Positions 34,442 to 43,861 of a stretch of DNA of 64,000 nucleotides are shown here, one piece after another. The stretch covers positions 1,178,001 through 1,242,000 of the forward strand of contig NZ_JAPEMC010000001.1 of NCBI RefSeq assembly GCF_026343115.1, given 5' to 3'. Numbering within the stretch: the first letter of the stretch is position 1; every line of letters begins with the position of its first letter. The notes beneath the pieces are model-generated. The model ran no database searches. It was not told the DNA's origin and saw only the letters and a program-made list of their open reading frames with translations. Made by a program: the position numbers and the translations under genes. Source of the DNA: Streptomyces sp. NBC_00102 (GTDB lineage Bacteria > Actinomycetota > Actinomycetes > Streptomycetales > Streptomycetaceae).

Positions 34442-34861
34442 AGTGCTCCCCTATCCGTCGGCGGCTCCGCAGCCCCTCCGCCACCGCCCGACATCATCGA
34501 AAGTACGCACGATTTTTGGCGCCCGCCAGCAAGGCAGGCCGTACTTACCACCGCTCTGACCAGGCAAGACAGGTTTGGCTCACCTTCCTTTCCGGGCCTC
34601 CGCACGCACCTTTCGGACGGGTCCGTCCCCGTTCACCCGTCCGGCTGTCTCCCCGAGGAAGGCCGTCATCCTTTCGGGTGGGACTTCGAAAGGCGGAACC
34701 CTTGCCCCGCCGGGGATCCCGCGTTCCTCCGTCCAGCTCCTCGCTCCGTTTCGTCTAGGTTCATCCGCATGGCCCTTTTATTCCGGTTGTCAGCCTTCCC
34801 TCCCGAGTGGCGTGGCACAGATCGGAGAGGGGGAAATCGTGTACGGACGAAGGGTCGACCG
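34442..34861. other. Divergent intergenic region: VIT gene / glycohydrolase operon
   Basis: 420 bp between divergent transcription units. It carries the iron box at 34569-34587 and must contain the promoter of the seven-gene operon starting at 34862. Short open frames here look like noise. Confidence 0.5.
34569..34587. promoter_or_regulatory. Candidate DmdR/IdeR iron box
   Basis: The 19-mer ACAGGTTTGGCTCACCTTC matches the Streptomyces iron-box consensus TTAGGTTAGGCTCACCTAA at 14 of 19 positions, including the central GGCTCACCT block. It lies upstream of the VIT transporter on one side and the glycohydrolase operon on the other. The VIT gene is the sensible target. Confidence 0.55.
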
Positions 34862-35992
34862 ATGGAACCGATCACGGGCAAGGACCGGGCCCGGGGCGCA
34901 TTGCTCGGGCTGGCCGTCGGAGACGCTCTGGGGGCCCCGGCGGAGAACCTGAGACCGTCGGAGATCCGCGCCCGCTGGGGCCGGATCGAGGGCTTCGTCA
35001 GCGAGGACCCGGCGGGCACGGACGACACCGAGTACGCGATCTTCTCCGGGCTGCTGCTGGCCCGCCACGGCTCGGCCCTCACCGTCGCCGACGTGGACCG
35101 GGCCTGGCACCACTGGATCGCCGATCTCGACGAAGGGCCCTTCCGGGGAGCCGGGTTCAGCGAACGCGGCACCCTGGAGAACCTCCGCCGGGGGCTGGCG
35201 GCACCGATCTCCGCGCAGCACCGGCACGCCTGGAGCGACGGACTGGCCATGCGGGCGGCCCCCTTCGGGGTGTTCGCGGCGGGACGGCCCGCCGAGGCGG
35301 CCCGGCTGGTGGCGATCGACGGGCAGGTCAGCCACGACGGCGAGGGCATCTACGGCGGCCAGGCGGTCGCGGCCGGAGTGGCCGCGGCGATGGTCGGGGC
35401 GGGCCCTGCCTCCGTGATCGCGGCGGCGCTCTCGGTGGTGCCGATGGACTCGTGGACCGCGCGGTCCCTGCGCCGGGCGGTGACCGCCGCGGGGCGCGTC
35501 CACCCGGACCGGCTGACGGCCGAGCGCGCGGTGCGCTCCGCGGTGGTGATCGGCGGCTACCCGTGGACGGACCTGGCGCCGGAGGCGGTGGGCCTGGCGT
35601 TCGGCGCCTTCACGGCCGCGCGCGGCGACTTCCGTACGGCCGTGCTGATGGCGGTCAACATGGGGCGGGACGCGGACACCACGGCGGCGGTGGCCGGGGC
35701 GCTGGCGGGGGCCTGGCAGGGGGCGGCGGCGATCCCCTCGGAGTGGGCCACCGCGATCGGCCCGGTGCGCGGCAGCTGTCTGCCGTCGATGCGGGGCTAC
35801 CACGTACTGGACGTCGCGGAGTTGCTGACCGCGGGCGACCCGGCGGGTCCGGCCCTGGCCCCGTTGGCGGCAGCGGTGGCGGTGGCGGATGGTGGTGCGC
35901 CGCCGGATCAGGAGGCGCACGGACCGACGGACGAGCCGGTGGCCGGGTCCCTGCCGGCGGAACTGCTGCACGCGGAAGGGGCACTGCGATGA
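34862..35992 (+). CDS. ADP-ribosylglycohydrolase family protein, paralogue 1 (catalytic residues intact)
   Basis: Family members (DraG, ARH1-3) hydrolyse N- or O-glycosidic bonds to ribose using two Mg2+. The 376-residue protein has GLAVGDALGAPAE at 16-28, metal ligands TDDT at 53-56 and DADT at 270-273 (GRDADTTAAVAG), so the active site looks complete. The C-terminal ~50 residues are Ala/Pro-rich. ATG 34862 has AAGGG upstream. First gene of an overlapping operon; its stop overlaps the next start (ATGA). The true substrate is unknown; ADP-ribosyl protein, ADP-ribose derivatives or another riboside are all possible. Confidence 0.9.
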   Translation: MEPITGKDRARGALLGLAVGDALGAPAENLRPSEIRARWGRIEGFVSEDPAGTDDTEYAIFSGLLLARHGSALTVADVDRAWHHWIADLDEGPFRGAGFSERGTLENLRRGLAAPISAQHRHAWSDGLAMRAAPFGVFAAGRPAEAARLVAIDGQVSHDGEGIYGGQAVAAGVAAAMVGAGPASVIAAALSVVPMDSWTARSLRRAVTAAGRVHPDRLTAERAVRSAVVIGGYPWTDLAPEAVGLAFGAFTAARGDFRTAVLMAVNMGRDADTTAAVAGALAGAWQGAAAIPSEWATAIGPVRGSCLPSMRGYHVLDVAELLTAGDPAGPALAPLAAAVAVADGGAPPDQEAHGPTDEPVAGSLPAELLHAEGALR

Positions 35993-37257
35993 CCGCCGCC
36001 ACCGACGGGGTGCTCCCCCGCGGCGCCGACGACGGCGTCCGTCCCGGGGCGGAGCCCCCGGAGACGACCCGGCGGGCGCGGATCGAGGGCCTGCTGCTGG
36101 GGCTCGCCGCCGGGGACGCGGCCGGCTGGCCCGCAGCCCGCCACCGGGCGGCCCGGATGCCCGAGTGGACGCGGCGGCTCACCCGGGAGCTGGACACCTT
36201 CGCCGAGCAGAACGCGACGACCACGCTGCCGGTGCCGATCGCGCTCAACCAGCCGCCGGAGCCGCTGCGGCTGGGCCCCTCGGACGACGCCGAGTGGGCC
36301 GCGTTCGCCGCCGGTACGGTGCTCGCGGCGGCGGCCGACGAGGCGCACGGGCTCGCCCCCTCCCGCCGGATGCGCGACGCGGTGGACCGCGCCTGGAACG
36401 CGCTGGCCGCCAAGGTCGCGGCGGCCAGCGAGCGGGCGCCCGAGGTGGAGGCGGCGGTGCTGCCGCTGCGCGCCCGGATCTCGGTGCGCGCCGGCCTCGG
36501 CAACCTCGCTGCCGGGCTGCGACCCCCCGCCACCGGCCACGACAACCCGCACTACTTCGACGACGCCGCCTGCGTGCGGGCCGCGGTGCTCGCGGTGGTG
36601 CACCCGGGCGATCCGGCCGCCGCCGCGGCGCTCGCGGAGTTCGACGCCCGGTACACGCAGGACGGCGACGGGGTGCACGGCGCGCGGGCCATCGCCGCCG
36701 CCATCGCCGAGGCGCTCGCCGGGGCGGACGTGACAACGGTGGTGGACGCGGCGCTCGCGCAGCTTCCGGAGGGCACCGAGATCGCGCGCAACGCGGTGCA
36801 CGCGGTGCGGCTCGCACGGGAGTTCGCGGACGAACCCGCCGGGGCGTTCTCGCTCGTCCCGGTGCTGGAGCACCAGATCGTGGACCACGTCTACAGCTAC
36901 GGCATCGCGGCCGCCGAGACGGTGCCGGTGGCGCTCGCGCTGACCACCGCGGCGCGCGGCCAGATCGCCCAGGCGGTCCCGGCCGCCGCCTGCCTCTCCC
37001 GGGTCGCGGACTCGGCGCCCGCGCTCGCCGGGGCGCTGACCGGGACGCTCGGCGGCATCCGGACCGTACCGTCCGGGTGGCGGGAGGCGTGCCGGACGCT
37101 CGCCGGGTGCGCGCTGCCCCGGCTCGCGGGCACCGATCTGATCGAACTCGCCGGGCTGCTCGCAGCCACGGAACAGGCCGCCACGGGTGGACAATTCAGC
37201 CATGATCCCCACAGTGAGTACTCAACACCCCGTATCGGACACGCTTTCCCTCGATGA
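35989..37257 (+). CDS. ADP-ribosylglycohydrolase family protein, paralogue 2 (degenerate metal site)
   Basis: 422 residues with the same all-helical fold (IEGLLLGLAAGDAAGWP near 33-49). The metal ligands have changed: TDDT reads SDDA at 98-101, and the C-terminal DxDT reads VADS at 339-342, so the first Asp is lost and Thr is Ser. The domain otherwise keeps the helix pattern (VHGARAIAAAIAEALAG, AGALTGTLGGIR). It is either an inactive partner or has altered chemistry. Start overlaps the preceding stop; its own 3' end overlaps the next gene by 56 bp if ATG 37202 is used there. Confidence 0.85.
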   Translation: MTAATDGVLPRGADDGVRPGAEPPETTRRARIEGLLLGLAAGDAAGWPAARHRAARMPEWTRRLTRELDTFAEQNATTTLPVPIALNQPPEPLRLGPSDDAEWAAFAAGTVLAAAADEAHGLAPSRRMRDAVDRAWNALAAKVAAASERAPEVEAAVLPLRARISVRAGLGNLAAGLRPPATGHDNPHYFDDAACVRAAVLAVVHPGDPAAAAALAEFDARYTQDGDGVHGARAIAAAIAEALAGADVTTVVDAALAQLPEGTEIARNAVHAVRLAREFADEPAGAFSLVPVLEHQIVDHVYSYGIAAAETVPVALALTTAARGQIAQAVPAAACLSRVADSAPALAGALTGTLGGIRTVPSGWREACRTLAGCALPRLAGTDLIELAGLLAATEQAATGGQFSHDPHSEYSTPRIGHAFPR

Positions 37258-38386
37258 ACGTGTGAGCGGAGCCCTCGTCGGCGCCGCCGTCGGCGACGCC
37301 CTCGGGGGGCCGGTCGAAGGCTGGACCTCCGAGCAGATCGCGGAGCGGCACGGCGGGCGGGTGCACGGGATCGTCGGTCCCTGGTACGGCGACGACTGGC
37401 GTACCGCCCGCCCGATCGCCCCGTACCACAAGGGCGATGGGCACGTCACCGACGACACCTTGATGACCCACGCGCTGGTGCGGGTCTACGACAAGGTCCG
37501 CGACCACCTGGACGCGTACTCCGTCGCCACGCACCTGGTCCCGGACCTGATCTCCACCCCGCGCTGGATTCCGGAGCTGGAGGCGGAGGCGCTGCCGCTC
37601 CAGCGGATCTTCCTCGCGGAGAAGTGGCTCGTGGCCCGGGTGCACTACGGGCACGTGGACCCGCGCGAGGCCGGCAGCGGAAACATCGTCAACTGCGGTG
37701 CGGCGATGTACATGGCGCCGGTCGGGCTGGTCAACGCGGCGCATCCGGAGGCCGCGTACGCGGAGGCGCTGGAGGTCGCGGCGCCGCACCAGTCCAGTTA
37801 CGGCCGGGAGGCGGCCGGGGTGTTCGCGGCGGCCGTCGCGGCGGCCTGCGTGCCGGGCGCCACACCGGTCTCGGTGGTGGAGGCGTGTCTGGCGCTCGCC
37901 AAGGACGGCACCCGCGCGGCGATCGAGGCGGTGTGCGAGGTGGCGGCACGGCACGGCGATCCCGAGTCGGCGCTGGTGCCGCTGCGGGAGGCGGTGGCCC
38001 CGTTCGACACGGTCGGCCCCGACTACCGCTCCCCCTCGCTCGGCGCCCGCCGGCCGTCGCGGCTGCACTCCATCGAGGAACTGCCCGTCGCCCTGGGCAT
38101 GCTGCTGGCGGGCGGCGGCGACTACCGCCGCACGGTGCTGGGTTCGGTGAACTACGGGCGCGACTGCGACTCCATCGCCACGATGAGCGGGGCGATCGTC
38201 GGCGCGCTGCACGGGGAGGCGGCGGTACCCGAGGAGTGGGCGAAGACGGTCGCCGAGGCGAGCCGGCTCGACCTGCACGCCCCGGCGCGCACCCTGACGG
38301 CGGTGGCGCGCGAGGTGTTCGCCGCCGACACCGCCCGCCGCCGCGCGCACGAGGCGGCCTTCGCGGTGCTGGCGGGTGAGCGGTGA
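37202..38386 (+). CDS. ADP-ribosylglycohydrolase family protein, paralogue 3 (catalytic residues intact)
   Basis: 394 residues from ATG 37202; an in-frame GTG at 37187 is an alternative. GALVGAAVGDALGGPVEGW at 23-41, TDDT at 83-86 (GHVTDDTLMTHALV), and DCDS at 321-324 (GRDCDSIATMSGAIVGAL) keep all metal ligands, Ser replacing Thr at the last position. An extended segment between helices (REAGSGNIVNCGAAMYMAPVG) is typical of the longer actinobacterial subgroup. The stop overlaps the following GTG. Confidence 0.9.
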   Translation: MIPTVSTQHPVSDTLSLDERVSGALVGAAVGDALGGPVEGWTSEQIAERHGGRVHGIVGPWYGDDWRTARPIAPYHKGDGHVTDDTLMTHALVRVYDKVRDHLDAYSVATHLVPDLISTPRWIPELEAEALPLQRIFLAEKWLVARVHYGHVDPREAGSGNIVNCGAAMYMAPVGLVNAAHPEAAYAEALEVAAPHQSSYGREAAGVFAAAVAAACVPGATPVSVVEACLALAKDGTRAAIEAVCEVAARHGDPESALVPLREAVAPFDTVGPDYRSPSLGARRPSRLHSIEELPVALGMLLAGGGDYRRTVLGSVNYGRDCDSIATMSGAIVGALHGEAAVPEEWAKTVAEASRLDLHAPARTLTAVAREVFAADTARRRAHEAAFAVLAGER

Positions 38387-39768
38387 ACGTCCGGCTGACC
38401 TGGGTCCAGCCCGAGGACCTGATCGGGCACGAACTGCGCCAGGCCGGACAGGACGGCCGGGACGCCTCCGAGATCGCCGCCCGGTGGTGTGCGGCCGGGG
38501 GCCCGCCCGCACCGGAGCGGGCAGGCGCCTCCGTACCGCCCGCACCGCCCGGGCTGCGTGCGCTCGCCGAGCGGCTGCTCGACGAACTCGCCCTGCTGGA
38601 GAGCCCGTTGGCGGAACAGGAGCCCACCGAGCTGGCGGCCGTCCGGGCGCTCTGCGCCACGTGGCCGGCCCCGCCGGCCGCCCGGTCCGTCCCGGATCCG
38701 GCCCGGCTGCACGCCGGATGGCTGGGCCGGGCGGCGGGCTGCCTGCTCGGCAAGCCGGTGGAGAAGCTCCCGCTGGAGGGCATCCGCGCGCTCGGCCGGG
38801 CCACCGGCAACTGGCCGCTCACCGACTGGTTCACCGCCCGGGGCGTACCGGACGCGCTGCTCGCCGCGTACCCCTGGAACCGCCGCTCCGCCCCCACCTC
38901 GCTGGCGGAGAACATCGACGGGATGCCGGAGGACGACGACCTCAACTTCCCTCTGCTGACGGTGTTGTTGCTCCGGCGTCACGGGCGCCGCTTCAGCACG
39001 GACGACCTCGCGCGGCTCTGGCTGGACGAGCTCCCGGCCGGCCGGGTCTTCACCGCCGAGCGCGTCGCGTACCGCAATCTGCTGGACGGGGTGGAGCCGC
39101 CCCGCACGGCCCGGTACCGCAACCCGTTCCGGGAGTGGATCGGCGCCCAGATCCGCGCCGACGTACACGGCTGGACCTGCCCCGGCGATCCGGGAGCGGC
39201 GGCGGAACAGGCGCACCGCGACGCGGTCCTCACCCACACGGGGAACGGCGTATACGGGGCGATGTTCACCGCGGCGGCGCTGGCGGAGGCGGCCGGCGGG
39301 GCGAGCGACGTGCACGGCTGCCTGGCCGCCGGGCTGCGCGTGGTGCCGCCCGGGTCCCGGTACGCCCGCGCGGTGCGCCTGGGCATCGAGACGGCCCGGG
39401 AGGCACGCACGTCGGGGACGGCGGGCGGCTTCGACGCGGTCGTCGACCGGCTGCACGAGGTCTACGCCGCCACCCACCACTGGGTGCACGTGCTGCCCAA
39501 CGCGGCGCTGCTCGCCGCCGCCCTCACCCACGCCGACGGCGACTTCACCCGCTCGATCGGCAACGCCGTGATGGGCGGCTGGGACACCGACTCGAACGGG
39601 GCGACCGCCGGATCGCTCGCCGGACTGCTGGCGGGCCGCCCGGACGCCCTGCCCGGCCACTGGACCGCCCCGCTCAAGAACCGCCTCGCCACCTCGGTGG
39701 CGGGATTCGACGGCACCGGCTTCGACACCCTCGCCGCTCAGACCTACCAGGAGGCACTGACCCCATGA
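38383..39768 (+). CDS. ADP-ribosylglycohydrolase family protein, paralogue 4 (long, variant motifs)
   Basis: 461 residues: a ~105-residue N-terminal extension of unknown function precedes the glycohydrolase domain. The first motif has Cys instead of Asp (GRAAGCLLGKPVE, C120). The TDDT position reads EDDD at 183-186 (MPEDDDLNFPLL), while the C-terminal motif DTDSN at 401-405 (GGWDTDSNGATAG) is intact. This GCLLGKPVE/PEDDD pattern seems to define its own subfamily rather than decay, since the motifs are charged and well formed. GTG start overlaps the preceding stop; its stop overlaps rbsK (ATGA). Confidence 0.88.
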   Translation: MNVRLTWVQPEDLIGHELRQAGQDGRDASEIAARWCAAGGPPAPERAGASVPPAPPGLRALAERLLDELALLESPLAEQEPTELAAVRALCATWPAPPAARSVPDPARLHAGWLGRAAGCLLGKPVEKLPLEGIRALGRATGNWPLTDWFTARGVPDALLAAYPWNRRSAPTSLAENIDGMPEDDDLNFPLLTVLLLRRHGRRFSTDDLARLWLDELPAGRVFTAERVAYRNLLDGVEPPRTARYRNPFREWIGAQIRADVHGWTCPGDPGAAAEQAHRDAVLTHTGNGVYGAMFTAAALAEAAGGASDVHGCLAAGLRVVPPGSRYARAVRLGIETAREARTSGTAGGFDAVVDRLHEVYAATHHWVHVLPNAALLAAALTHADGDFTRSIGNAVMGGWDTDSNGATAGSLAGLLAGRPDALPGHWTAPLKNRLATSVAGFDGTGFDTLAAQTYQEALTP

Positions 39769-40649
39769 CCCGTATCACGGTGCTCGGCAGCATCAACATG
39801 GATCTGGTCGCCTACGTCGCCCGGGCGCCCGCACTCGGCGAGACCGTCGCCGGGAGGGAGTTCCGTACGGTTCCAGGCGGCAAGGGCGCCAACCAGGCGG
39901 TCGCCGCCGCGCGGGCCGGCGGGGAGGTCACGATGGTCGGCGCGGTCGGCGCCGACGCGTACGGCTCGCAGCTGCGGGGCGGGCTGGAGAGCGCGGGGAT
40001 CGACACCGGTCTCGTGCGGACGGTCGAGGGCGCGAGCGGCACGGCGCACATCGTGGTCGACGACACCGGCGCCAACGCGATCGTGGTGGTGCCCGGGGCG
40101 AACGGCACGTTCACCGCGCTCGGGCCCGCCGAGAGGGAGGCGGTGGCCTCGGCCGATCTGCTGCTGCTCCAGCTGGAGCTGCCGCTGTCCGCGGTGACGG
40201 AGGGGGCGCGGGCCGCCCGTGCGCGGGGCGTGCGCACCATCCTCACCCCGGCCCCCGTCCAGCCGTTGCCCGACGAGCTCCTGGACCACGTCGACCTGCT
40301 GGTCCCCAACGAGCACGAGGCGGCGCAGCTCTCCGGGTACGAGGACCCGTACGCCGCGGCGCGCGTCCTGCTCCGCAAGGTGCCCGAGGTCGTCATCACC
40401 CTCGGCTCGAAGGGCTGCCTGTACGCGGCCCGGGGCGCCGAGCCCGTGCCCTTCGCCGCCCCGGAGGTGACCTCGGTCGACACGACCGGCGCGGGCGACA
40501 CCTTCGTCGGGACCCTGGCCGTGGCCCTCGGCGAGGGCCGGCCGGTCGCCGAGGCGGTCGCCTGGGCGTCCTCGGCCGCCGCCCTGTGCGTCCAGAAGCC
40601 CGGCGCGTCCACCTCCATGCCCTACCGAAGCGAGATCGATGCCTCATGA
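39765..40649 (+). CDS. rbsK: Ribokinase (PfkB family)
   Basis: Phosphorylates ribose (or a related pentose or nucleoside) with ATP. The 294-residue protein has the PfkB signature 1 GGKGANQAVAAARAGG near residue 42 and signature 2 DTTGAGDTFVGTLA with the catalytic Asp near 245. The N-terminal LGSINMDLVAYV and substrate residues (N, D in INMD) match ribokinases. No rbs transporter or LacI regulator is nearby; instead it is overlapped by glycohydrolase and CoA-transferase genes, which suggests that the sugar comes from intracellular glycoside hydrolysis. Confidence 0.9.
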   Translation: MTRITVLGSINMDLVAYVARAPALGETVAGREFRTVPGGKGANQAVAAARAGGEVTMVGAVGADAYGSQLRGGLESAGIDTGLVRTVEGASGTAHIVVDDTGANAIVVVPGANGTFTALGPAEREAVASADLLLLQLELPLSAVTEGARAARARGVRTILTPAPVQPLPDELLDHVDLLVPNEHEAAQLSGYEDPYAAARVLLRKVPEVVITLGSKGCLYAARGAEPVPFAAPEVTSVDTTGAGDTFVGTLAVALGEGRPVAEAVAWASSAAALCVQKPGASTSMPYRSEIDAS

Positions 40650-41857
40650 ACGAATCCGGGACCACCCTCACCGCCACCCCTCTGTCGGGCCTGCGGGTCC
40701 TCGATCTCGCGACCCTCTTCGCCGGTCCGCTCGCGGCGACCATGCTCGGTGACTTCGGGGCCGAGGTGATCAAGGTCGAACATCCGCGCAAACCCGACCC
40801 TTCGCGCGGCCACGGCCCCGCGAAGGACGGGGTCGGTCTCTGGTGGAAGCTGCTGGGCCGCAACAAGCGCAACCTCACGCTGGACCTGTCCAGGCCCGGC
40901 GGGCGCGAGGTGCTGCTGCGGCTGGCGGCGGAGACCGATGTGATCATCGAGAACTTCCGGCCCGGCACCCTGGAGCGCTGGGGGCTCGGCTGGGAGGAGC
41001 TGGAGGCGGTCAACCCCCGGCTGGTACTGACCCGGGTGACGGCCTTCGGCCAGTTCGGCCCGTACTCGCACCGGCCCGGGTTCGGGACGCTCGCCGAGGC
41101 GATGAGCGGCTTCGCGTCGATCACCGGTGAGCCGGAGGGGCCGCCGACGCTGCCGCCGTTCGGGCTCGCCGACTCGATCGCGGCGCTCGCCACCGCGTAC
41201 GCCGTGATGGCCGCGCTCGCCGGGCGCGACCGCACCGGGCGGGGGCAGGTGGTCGACATGGCGATCATCGAGCCGATCCTGACGGTGCTGGGCCCGCAGC
41301 CGCTCTGGTTCGACCAGCTCGGCCACGTCCAGCAGCGCACCGGGAACCGCTCGCGGAACAACGCCCCGCGCAACACCTACCGCACCTCGGACGGCCAGTG
41401 GGTCGCGGTCTCCACCTCGGCGCAGTCGATCGCCGAACGGGTGATGCGGCTGGTCGGACGCCCCGAACTGATCGACGAGCCGTGGTTCGCGTCGGGCGCG
41501 ACCCGGGCGGAGCACGCGGACGAGCTGGACGGGGCGGTCGGGTCGTGGATCGCCCGGCACACCCGGGACGACGCGCTCGCCGAGTTCGAGAAGGCGGAGG
41601 CGGCCATCGCCCCCATCTACGACGTGCGGGACGTGATGGAGGATCCGCAGTACCGGGCGCTGGACAGCGTCACCGAGGTGGACGATCCGGAGCTGGGGCC
41701 GCTGCGGATGCAGAACGTCCTCTTCCGGCTCTCCGAGACCCCGGGCTCCATCCGGTGGGCGGGGCGCCCGCACGGGGCCGACACCGAGGAGATCCTCCAC
41801 GAGCTGGGCCTGTCCGGCGAGCGGATCGCGGCGCTGCGTTCTCAGGGGGCGCTGTGA
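40646..41857 (+). CDS. CaiB/BaiF-family (class III) CoA-transferase
   Basis: Transfers CoA between acyl-CoA and a free carboxylic acid through an Asp-bound intermediate. The 403-residue protein starts PLSGLRVLDLATLFAGPLA, has FGAEVIKVEHP, then LDLSRPGGREVLLRLAAETDVIIENFRPGTLE-type conservation around IIENFRPG, and the catalytic Asp in GRGQVVDMAIIE. Normal family length. ATG overlaps the rbsK stop and the stop overlaps the next GTG. Substrate unknown; pairing with a CitE-like lyase resembles succinyl-CoA:citramalate/mesaconate-type systems. Confidence 0.9.
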   Translation: MNESGTTLTATPLSGLRVLDLATLFAGPLAATMLGDFGAEVIKVEHPRKPDPSRGHGPAKDGVGLWWKLLGRNKRNLTLDLSRPGGREVLLRLAAETDVIIENFRPGTLERWGLGWEELEAVNPRLVLTRVTAFGQFGPYSHRPGFGTLAEAMSGFASITGEPEGPPTLPPFGLADSIAALATAYAVMAALAGRDRTGRGQVVDMAIIEPILTVLGPQPLWFDQLGHVQQRTGNRSRNNAPRNTYRTSDGQWVAVSTSAQSIAERVMRLVGRPELIDEPWFASGATRAEHADELDGAVGSWIARHTRDDALAEFEKAEAAIAPIYDVRDVMEDPQYRALDSVTEVDDPELGPLRMQNVLFRLSETPGSIRWAGRPHGADTEEILHELGLSGERIAALRSQGAL

Positions 41858-42771
41858 CGGCGGCCGAGGCGCACCCTCGCGCCACCGCGGCCGTCCCGCC
41901 CGGCGACATCTCCCCGTACGACTCGTACGACACGACTCCGGTGCCGCTGACCTGGCTCTACGTACCCGGTGACCGGCCGGAGGTGGTGCTCAAGGCGCTG
42001 GGTGCCGGGGCGGACGTGGTGATCGTGGACCTGGAGGACGCGGTCGCCCCGGGCCGTAAGGAGTACGCCCGGTCCGCCACCGCCGAGCTGCTCACCGATC
42101 CGGTGACCACCGCCGAGGACGCCGTACCGGTCCATGTGCGGGTGCACGGGGAGGACGACGTGCGGGCGCTGGCGGGGCTGCCGGGGCTGTCCGGGATACG
42201 GCTCCCCAAGATCACGCACGCGGTGTCCGTGCACCATGTGGCGGCGCTCGCCCCCGGTGTTCCGCTCTATCCGCTGCTCGAATCGGCGCTCGCGATCGAG
42301 CACGCGTACTCCATCGCCTCGGCCCACCACGACGTGCGGGGCATCGCGCTCGGGGAGTCGGACCTCCGCGCCGATCTGGGGGTACGGGACGACGTCGGGC
42401 TCGACTGGTCGCGCAGCCGGATCGTGGTGGCGGCGCGGGCGGCCGGGCTGGAGCCGCCGACGCAGTCGGTCTTCCCCGACGTGCGCGATCTGGACGGGCT
42501 GTGGGCCTCGTGCGGCCGGGGGCGGGCGCTGGGGATGCTGGGCCGGGCGGCGATCCACCCGCGGCAGCTGCCGGTGATCGAGCGGGCCTTCCGGCCGACC
42601 GATCAGGAGCTGGAGGCCGCCGAGGAGATCGTGGCGGCGGCCCGTACGGACGCGGGCGCGCTGGCACTGCCGGACGGCCGGTTCGTGGACGCGGCGGTGG
42701 CCGCGGCCGCGCACCGCACCCTCGCCCTCGGGCGGCGCACGGCCGCGGCGGCGGGTGCGGCCGTGGGCTGA
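41854..42771 (+). CDS. HpcH/HpaI aldolase / CitE-like lyase
   Basis: Mg2+-dependent TIM-barrel lyase of the citrate lyase beta / malyl-CoA lyase superfamily. Of 305 residues, the first half has LYVPGDRPEVVLKA, VIVDLEDAVAPGRK (catalytic Asp/Glu) and VRVHGEDDVRAL (active-site Arg). The Glu of PLLESALAIEHA and Asp in GESDLRADLG bind metal. The ~30-residue N-terminal extension is unusual. Downstream of a CoA-transferase it would cleave a beta-hydroxyacyl-CoA to acetyl-CoA or glyoxylate-type products. It is the last gene of the operon, followed by a perfect hairpin. Confidence 0.9.
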   Translation: MTAAEAHPRATAAVPPGDISPYDSYDTTPVPLTWLYVPGDRPEVVLKALGAGADVVIVDLEDAVAPGRKEYARSATAELLTDPVTTAEDAVPVHVRVHGEDDVRALAGLPGLSGIRLPKITHAVSVHHVAALAPGVPLYPLLESALAIEHAYSIASAHHDVRGIALGESDLRADLGVRDDVGLDWSRSRIVVAARAAGLEPPTQSVFPDVRDLDGLWASCGRGRALGMLGRAAIHPRQLPVIERAFRPTDQELEAAEEIVAAARTDAGALALPDGRFVDAAVAAAAHRTLALGRRTAAAAGAAVG

Positions 42772-42811
42772 CGTCCCACCGCCCGGTCGCGGGCGGTCCG
42801 GAGCACGGAAA

Positions 42812-42843
42812 AGGCCGCCGCACCCGGTCGGGTGCGGCGGCCT
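42812..42843. terminator. Bidirectional terminator at the end of the glycohydrolase operon and lgt
   Basis: A perfect 14-bp stem (42812-42825 with 42830-42843) with a 4-nt loop GGTC, between convergent genes; AAAA precedes it, giving a U run on the minus strand. Confidence 0.9.
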
Positions 42844-42859
42844 CGTGCCGCCTCGGAAG

Positions 42860-43861
42860 TCAGCTCGTACCGGCGGTACGGGCGGCGCCGTCGGTCTCCG
42901 GCTCGTCCACGGCGCCGGTTCCGGCGGCGTCCGCCGGGCCGGTCTCCGTCGCGTCGGCCTTCACCAGGTCGGCCTTGGCCGTGTCGGTGCCGTCGGCCTT
43001 GCCGTCCGTGGGATCCGCCTCGGTGCCGTCGCCGTCGGCATCGTCCTGCGCCCCGGGCTCCACGATCTCCTCGCGGCCGGGACGCACCTTGGCGGAGATC
43101 ACCATGTACGTGACGGCCAGGATGAAGACGATGATCGCGGTCCACACGTTCAGCCGCAGGCCGAGCACGTGGTGGGCCTCGTCGACCCGCATGTACTCGA
43201 TCCAGACCCGGCCGCTGCAGTACGCGGCGACGTACAGGGCGAAGGCCCGGCCGTGTCCGAGCCGGAAGCGGCGGTCCGCCCAGATGACCAGCAGGGCGAC
43301 ACCGACGCACCAGAGCGATTCGTAGAGGAACGTCGGGTGGTAGACACCCTCGGTCCGGTTCGCGGCGCCGCTGATCTTCAGGCCCCACGGCAGGGTGGTC
43401 TCGCGGCCGTAGAGCTCCTGGTTGAACCAGTTGCCCCAGCGCCCGATGGCCTGGGCGAAGGCGATGCCGGGGGCGAGCGCGTCGGCCCAGGCGGGCAGCG
43501 GGATGCCCCGGCGGCGGCAGCCGATCCAGGCGCCGACCGCGCCGAGGGAGATGGCGCCCCAGATACCGAGGCCGCCCTCCCACACCTTGAAGGCGTCGAC
43601 CCAGTCCTCACCGTCGCTGAAGTACAGCTGGTAGTCGGTGATGACGTGGTAGAGACGACCGCCCAACAGGCCGAAAGGCACCGCCCAGACGGCGATGTCG
43701 GCCACGGTGCCGGCTCTGCCGCCCCGGGCGATCCAGCGCTTGTTGCCGAGCCAGACGGCGACGAAGACACCGATGATGATGCAGAACGCGTAGCCGCGGA
43801 GCGGGATCGGTCCGAGATCGATCACGCCGGTCGACGGGCTGGGAATGTAGGCAAGGTTCAT
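42860..43861 (-). CDS. lgt: Prolipoprotein diacylglyceryl transferase
   Basis: Integral membrane enzyme attaching diacylglycerol to the lipobox Cys of lipoproteins, the first step of lipoprotein maturation. The 333-residue protein begins MNLAYIPSPSTGVIDLGPIPLRGYA, has seven membrane helices, the Lgt signature GRWGNWFNQELYGRETTLPWGL (shown here in parts: GRWGNWFNQE, RETTLPWGL) and HPTFLYES. The C-terminal ~65 residues are acidic and repetitive (DGDGTEAD, GKADGTDTAKADL), as in other Streptomyces Lgt. It lies downstream of a DsbA-like gene and trpA on the same strand. Confidence 0.96.
   Translation of the reverse strand: MNLAYIPSPSTGVIDLGPIPLRGYAFCIIIGVFVAVWLGNKRWIARGGRAGTVADIAVWAVPFGLLGGRLYHVITDYQLYFSDGEDWVDAFKVWEGGLGIWGAISLGAVGAWIGCRRRGIPLPAWADALAPGIAFAQAIGRWGNWFNQELYGRETTLPWGLKISGAANRTEGVYHPTFLYESLWCVGVALLVIWADRRFRLGHGRAFALYVAAYCSGRVWIEYMRVDEAHHVLGLRLNVWTAIIVFILAVTYMVISAKVRPGREEIVEPGAQDDADGDGTEADPTDGKADGTDTAKADLVKADATETGPADAAGTGAVDEPETDGAARTAGTS

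Follow-up and report, generated by a model that had tools for sequence, protein, structure and literature searches.

Why should a Streptomyces genome keep four members of the ADP-ribosylglycohydrolase (ARH) family in one operon with a ribokinase, a CoA-transferase and a CoA-ester lyase? This question is raised by a locus of Streptomyces sp. NBC_00102 within a 64,000-nucleotide stretch of contig NZ_JAPEMC010000001.1 (positions 1,178,001 to 1,242,000; hereafter the window, whose first letter is position 1). Seven co-directional genes at 34862-42771 (+) encode four ARH-fold proteins (A1 to A4), a ribokinase (K), a class III CoA-transferase (T) and a CitE-like lyase (L), in the order A1-A2-A3-A4-K-T-L. 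In all likelihood the operon supplies the enzymes, but not the transporter, of a bacterial system of wide distribution that would import and break down a sugar-linked acid, and the "ADP-ribose" enzymes encoded here are probably sugar-cleaving catabolic enzymes rather than erasers of protein modification. A sugar-type catabolic module for an imported riboside or acyl-glycoside is, in our estimate, the best explanation of the locus, with a probability of roughly 60%. The observations behind it are the genes themselves, their families, catalytic motifs and overlaps, and their synteny with an importer and a regulator.

A class-wide search of actinobacterial genomes with A4 yielded matches in 58 of 296 genomes and 17 of 114 genera (46 of these 58 genomes, including that of the window strain, at E<=1e-120), and A3 was found in 25 of 31 Streptomyces genomes (E<=1e-60). 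The seven-gene order, the conservation of which the earlier sequence-only reading of this DNA had proposed to examine, indeed recurs in Streptomyces and in other actinobacterial families, in some loci outside Streptomyces with an additional gene, X, between K and T. A search with A4 supplied 20 operon loci from outside Streptomyces, half of which (10) contain X. In 18 of these 20 loci, the genes of a regulator, two permeases and a binding protein (lacI-malF-malG-sbp) precede A3 or A1; for the remaining two, L039 and L051, the contig starts inside the operon. Pfam analysis of one locus (L048) identified the products as LacI, two BPD_transp_1 permeases and an SBP_bac_1 binding protein. A second set of loci was fetched by gene X (the best 80 of 241, from Kribbella, Nocardioides, Amycolatopsis, Cellulosimicrobium, Leifsonia, Glycomyces and other genera). 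Among the 68 X-fetched loci of at least 20 kb, malF, malG and A4 are present in all 68, A3, T and L in 67 each, lacI in 65 and K in 60; the binding protein was found by tblastn in 68 of 68, the 38% identity cut-off of the gene-content count having missed it in 19. The usual order in this set is lacI-malF-malG-sbp-A3-A4-K-X-T-L, with an insertion between A3 and A4 in some Kribbella loci, and no A1 or A2 was found in any of the 80.

Some arrangements depart from this pattern. Locus L040 is rearranged, with T-L first and no K, and L041 is devoid of A1, A2 and K. The latter comes from G262, a genome of only 1.8 Mb (98% complete; GC content of the locus 0.47). As LacI, the importer, A3, A4, X, T and L are all retained there, the pathway seems to survive genome reduction. 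Further settings were also observed: a second, paralogous cluster in one genome (L070, 4911-17969) combines LacI, an A4-like gene, a binding protein, permeases and a ribokinase with a divergent A1-A2 pair and a 651-residue PF03747 protein with a signal-like N-terminus, and at L072 (7531-10742) an A4-like gene adjoins a nucleoside hydrolase (PF01156), a ThuA gene (PF06283) and CUT1-type permeases.

Curated Pfam cut-offs are exceeded by all seven proteins. The four ARH-fold paralogues, rightly described before as differing in length, all belong to PF03747 (cut-off 26.2 bits): A1 (34862..35992, 376 residues, 198.6 bits), the divergent A2 (35989..37257, 422 residues, 110.6 bits), and the two core members A3 (37202..38386, 394 residues, 181.2 bits; common to rhizobia) and A4 (38383..39768, 461 residues, 170.3 bits). 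Since the genome of the window strain contains ten PF03747 matches, four of them within this operon, and the order recurs in other families, this grouping is beyond chance. The motif residues that we take to form the metal site are intact in A1 (GDALGAPAE, TDDTE and NMGRDADTT) and retained in its homologues (Glu, DD and DxDT in 31 of 31, the first motif residue being Thr in 30 and Ser in one), as well as in those of A3 (Glu and TDDT in 117 of 117; DxDS in 116, one being gapped) and of A4 (Glu, DDD and DTDS in 113 of 113), which carries an N-terminal extension of ~110 residues and the motifs PEDDD and DTDS. In all 27 A2 homologues the Glu is lost, TDDT is replaced by [SGT]DDA (loss of the second Thr) and DxDS by xxDS (loss of the first Asp of DxD[ST]). 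Because many other columns are invariant (26 aligned rows) despite these losses, A2 looks as if it were being kept with a changed site and not like a decaying copy. A recent tandem duplication as the origin of A1-A4 was considered and rejected, as the four fall into separate supported tree groups spanning families (some branches being long). The equivalog cut-offs of DraG (TIGR02662, 337 bits) and Tri1 (NF041672, 490 bits) are reached neither by A1 (73.4 and 50.8 bits, respectively) nor by A3 (47.6 and 45.9 bits), and A2 and A4 give no match to either model.

The remaining three enzymes would serve a sugar branch and an acid branch. K (39765..40649, 294 residues, PF00294) scores above the NCBIfam ribokinase equivalog cut-off (TIGR02152, 314.2 vs. 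299.65 bits) and below that of the stricter PRK11142 model (265.2 vs. 341), with [GA]AGD present in 97 of 97 homologues. T (40646..41857, 403 residues, CaiB/Frc-type, PF02515 at 417.7 bits) retains the presumably catalytic Asp in 112 of 113 homologues (one has a gap); none of the substrate equivalogs compared (oxalate, glutarate, mesaconate, carnitine) is reached, the best score being 241.9 vs. 750 bits for succinate-glutarate. L (41854..42771, 305 residues), a CitE-like beta-hydroxyacyl-CoA lyase by family (PF03328, 95.5 vs. 25 bits), retains the Glu and Asp that we presume to be Mg ligands in 109 of 109 homologues and stays below the equivalog cut-offs of RipC (135.4 vs. 375) and citE (110.3 vs. 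443.4). Its best PDB matches are acyl-CoA lyases, including Rv2498c (6AQ4, 1.4e-24), an enzyme that cleaves (R)-3-hydroxy-3-methylglutaryl-CoA and (S)-citramalyl-CoA (PMC6689899; this and the other papers cited by PMC number are represented here by excerpts); the same source warns that assignment of PF03328 functions from bioinformatics alone is unreliable.

Two companion genes bear on the nature of the substrate. Gene X, absent from the window and from the Streptomyces loci examined, is predicted to encode a glycosidase-type barrel fused to a formylglycine-generating-enzyme (FGE)-sulfatase domain (L047, 5240-7210 (-); 10001 onward in most of L103-L181). Its structure model (pLDDT 87.1, pTM 0.89) resembles barrels of the alpha-amylase type as well as FGE-like folds, with TM-scores of 0.17-0.48, and a Pfam scan of two of the proteins gave no family match for the barrel. 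Two residues that we take to be catalytic, Asp184 and Glu209, are invariant in 44 rows and placed as in retaining glycosidases. An esterase homologue lies within 500 bp and on the same strand in 22 of the 80 X-fetched loci; three further loci have it on the opposite strand at a distance of 3 kb, which makes 25 among the 140 loci searched (family PF00756 verified in 3). Both genes were tried as pointers to the substrate and neither identified it; together, they suggest an acylated glycoside, fitting a freed acid for T and L. That X and A1/A2 replace each other was also considered (X only in 83 of 124 loci, A1/A2 only in 23, both in 7 and neither in 11, all rhizobial-type); this alternation was rejected as evidence because 80 of the 124 loci had been chosen by X.

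From these components we infer each enzymatic step, the order of the steps and a single substrate giving rise to both ribose and acid. A CUT1-type ATP-binding cassette importer, encoded beside the enzymes in most of the relatives examined and elsewhere in the genome of the window strain, would take up a riboside or acylated glycoside. The core enzymes A3 and A4, with A1 and its altered partner A2 as accessories, would hydrolyse glycosidic bonds to ribose at a binuclear metal site and so release ribose, the substrate of K, along with a beta-hydroxy acid that T and L would process. Ribose would then be converted to ribose 5-phosphate by K, T would transfer CoA to the freed acid (succinyl-CoA being a possible donor), and L would split the resulting beta-hydroxyacyl-CoA into acetyl-CoA and an oxo acid; our guess for the acid is the 3-hydroxy-3-methylglutarate, citramalate or malate type. 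Riboside cleavage, ribose phosphorylation, and CoA activation and cleavage of an acid had already been proposed in the sequence-only reading and are in keeping with our results, the phosphorylation through the TIGR02152 score of K and the acid steps through the conserved catalytic residues of T and L; the internal origin that it suggested for the substrate is not supported.

The sugar itself could be a different one, with the ARH-fold proteins acting on non-ribose furanoside or acyl-sugar linkages and K phosphorylating another pentose or a deoxysugar. The occurrence of A4 relatives next to other CUT1-type permeases and varied sugar genes, the recurrence of the esterase and the glycosidase-like X, and the altered site of A2 would all be compatible with such a substrate. 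The ARH metal site binds ribose, and its integrity in A1, A3 and A4, together with the ribokinase equivalog score of K, makes this alternative unlikely.

The absence of transporter and regulator genes from the operon had led the sequence-only reading to suggest a substrate made inside the cell. While importer and LacI genes are indeed not contiguous with the enzymes in the window, comparison does not support this argument, as they adjoin the enzymes in most of the non-Streptomyces relatives examined and in Streptomyces G308, where lacI-malF-malG-sbp-A1-A2-A3-A4-T-L (no K) form one contiguous set outside the usual genomic slot between a VIT-family gene and lgt. Twelve Streptomyces loci were compared, and ten of them have the enzymes in that slot: eight (L059, L060, L062-L066 and L101) have the full seven genes, L061 is missing K, and in strain G305 (L100, 5377-13222) the operon looks decayed, with A2 and K missing and A4 and L fragmentary, the importer persisting elsewhere in that genome. 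In strain G317, the slot holds only malF-malG-sbp, and its genome has no A3 at E<=1e-60. The window strain has malF-malG-sbp at ~C1:6142351-6145399 (the binding-protein gene at C1:6144182-6145399), ~4.9 Mb from the operon (C1:1212862-1220771 in the same numbering), and its permeases group with those of G300, G305, G308 and G317 in a Streptomyces clade (SH-aLRT 100, quick tree); judged by sequence, this distant importer is an ortholog of the linked ones. From the contiguous arrangement in G308, the importer-only slot in G317 and the distant importer of the window strain, importer and enzymes appear to have come apart in most of the Streptomyces sampled. A salvage of internally made ribosides without import could still appeal to the 10 of 12 Streptomyces loci where the importer is not beside the operon and to the 7 of 31 Streptomyces genomes in which A3 is present but no binding protein matches at E<=1e-30, but the linkage in 18 of 20 A4-fetched loci, in nearly all X-fetched loci and in G308, as well as the orthologous importer kept by the window strain, renders it improbable.

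A comparable module occurs outside Actinobacteria. A plasmid search with A3 returned 26 records: one Nonomuraea (70% identity), 20 rhizobial or related (42-48%), and partial matches at 26-31% in one haloarchaeal and four Salmonella plasmids. Gene context was read for 11 of the 20 rhizobial-type records; a regulator of the LacI type, two permeases and A3 occur in every one of the 11, and an A4-like gene in 10 (all except Pseudochrobactrum). T is present in six, with 43-45% identity and split in two in Rhizobium RCAM05350, and L was detected in five of those six (28-31%). In Agrobacterium HAMBI 105 the module is followed by a ribokinase; R. leguminosarum Gr 12/7 has one upstream in divergent orientation (41%), and Phyllobacterium an upstream fragment of one; neither T-L nor a ribokinase is found in the Nitratireductor and Pseudochrobactrum loci. 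The separate occurrence of T-L and ribokinase in these loci suggests two product branches. Rhizobial A3 falls within the A3 group of the tree (100/100).

Streptomyces coelicolor provides a link to the ADP-ribosylation literature: SCO2028-SCO2030 (in the excerpt of PMC5087735) and SCO2028-SCO2031 (in that of PMC9411070) are listed as uncharacterised DraG/ARH homologues, which indirectly supports the similar order in this species that the sequence-only reading had mentioned. By gene order, SCO2028 is probably A1 and SCO2030 probably A3. A role of the ARH proteins in taking ADP-ribose off proteins, nucleic acids or small molecules, with K recycling ribose and T and L as unrelated passengers, accords with the PF03747 membership of A1-A4 and with these listings, but is very improbable given the sugar-type importer linkage in two phyla, the retention of T and L beside A3-A4 in 67 of the 68 long X-fetched loci, the DraG and Tri1 scores below cut-off, and the lack of activity of SCO2028 and SCO2030 on uracil-ADP-ribose, one substrate only, in the excerpt of PMC13036486.

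Several points weigh against import and catabolism of a riboside or acyl-glycoside. K is missing in 8 of the 68 long X-fetched loci, in G308 and in L061, and 5 of the 11 rhizobial loci show no T, so that the ribose and acid halves are separable. Those ARH enzymes whose function has been established are, to our knowledge, active on ADP-ribosyl compounds. The LacI of the operon has no clear orthologue in the genome of the window strain (37 matches, best 41%), the linked LacIs themselves ranging down to 37% identity. Across the 31 Streptomyces genomes, A3 (25 genomes, E<=1e-60) and the binding protein (21 genomes, E<=1e-30) are only loosely associated (both in 18, A3 only in 7, binding protein only in 3, neither in 3). 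Rhizobial A4 (29-32%) joins A4 and the A4-like paralogues of other sugar clusters (100/100), outside the operon A4 group, and the rhizobial permeases are only 24-27% identical; because of these two features the rhizobial module looks parallel in design, with only A3 and T clearly orthologous and orthology throughout not proven.

Several described systems share features with the module. As in LacI-CUT1 (malEFG-type) operons, the relatives have LacI, two BPD_transp_1 permeases and SBP_bac_1, followed by presumed intracellular glycosidases and a sugar kinase; unlike in those, the glycosidases would be ARH-fold proteins, a CoA-transferase and a CoA-ester lyase follow, and the window strain has its importer away from the enzymes, with no regulator found. 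The Ich/RipC system pairs an itaconate/citramalate-type CoA-transferase with a CitE-like lyase. The pairing of a class III CoA-transferase with a PF03328 lyase is shared with this and the Rv2498c type, whereas RipC and citE cut-offs are not reached, no hydratase is among the seven genes and the acid would presumably come from a glycoside. A1 and A3 match solved members of the DraG/ARH3/Tri1 group by sequence and share its metal motifs, and differ from it in the scores given above, the carbohydrate context and the missing site of A2. The E. coli yegTUV operon, which the sequence-only reading had taken as support, likewise has one PF03747-type protein and one putative sugar kinase, but it has a major facilitator superfamily (MFS)-type transporter and a GntR regulator, and its annotated stretch contains neither T nor L; here, the ARH protein and sugar kinase are present, and an MFS nucleoside-type transporter and a GntR regulator are not. 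YegU is 26% identical to A3 and forms a long branch of uncertain position that lies outside the groups of A1 to A4, so that the close kinship considered proved remote and the support is weak, the transporter also being of another type (PMC10819704). In the excerpt of that paper, the effector of the yegTUV regulator GgaR/YegW is ADP-glucose and the operon is without assigned function; a yegTUV-like staphylococcal set of ADP-ribosylglycohydrolase, permease and ribokinase is tabulated in PMC3900703. No paper on the present operon or pathway was among the matches listed in the open-access literature.

The layout of the operon agrees with the earlier description of seven genes with overlaps of 4 to 56 bp at six junctions: from A1/A2 to T/L the overlaps are 4, 56, 4, 4, 4 and 4 bp (6 of 6), with ATGA or GTGA at each 4-bp junction. 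The five 4-bp overlaps are independent of start choice, while the 56 bp at A2/A3 follow from choosing ATG 37202 for A3 over GTG 37187 (longest open reading frame) and GTG 37214. GC content at the third codon position is 0.92-0.96 in all seven reading frames, and the seven genes would be expressed as one transcript. The perfect hairpin said to end the operon is real (42813..42842, 13-bp stem, 4-nt loop; z-score -4.8 for 42780-42860). It has no T-run and the terminator scan gives no site; lying between the convergent operon and lgt, it is a possible bidirectional terminator serving both. The flanks consist of divergent gltB-VIT upstream and, downstream, lgt and then a DsbA-like gene (by Pfam). 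An alignment of the window with nine Streptomyces loci revealed a conserved block upstream of A1 (~34501-34547). This block may belong, as promoter or regulator site, to the divergent VIT-family gene (PF01988) and not to the operon, and the aligned upstream regions yielded no LacI operator.

Were catabolism of an imported conjugate to hold, four of the eight S. coelicolor DraG/ARH homologues (in the excerpt of PMC9411070) would shift from ADP-ribosylation signalling to catabolism, which would alter the reading of the ADP-ribosylation literature. Presence of the pathway in many soil actinobacteria, with a parallel on rhizobial plasmids, would imply a substrate common enough to hold together an importer, several glycosidases and an acid-degrading pair, in some cases along with an esterase. 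In a broader and more tentative form, to which we would give somewhat less than even chances, a large branch of the ARH fold, spread across phyla, may consist of metal-dependent glycosidases that act inside the cell on a ribose-acid conjugate common in the environment, the A3/A4-T-L core may constitute a new catabolic pathway, and the Streptomyces "erasers" may belong to carbon nutrition.

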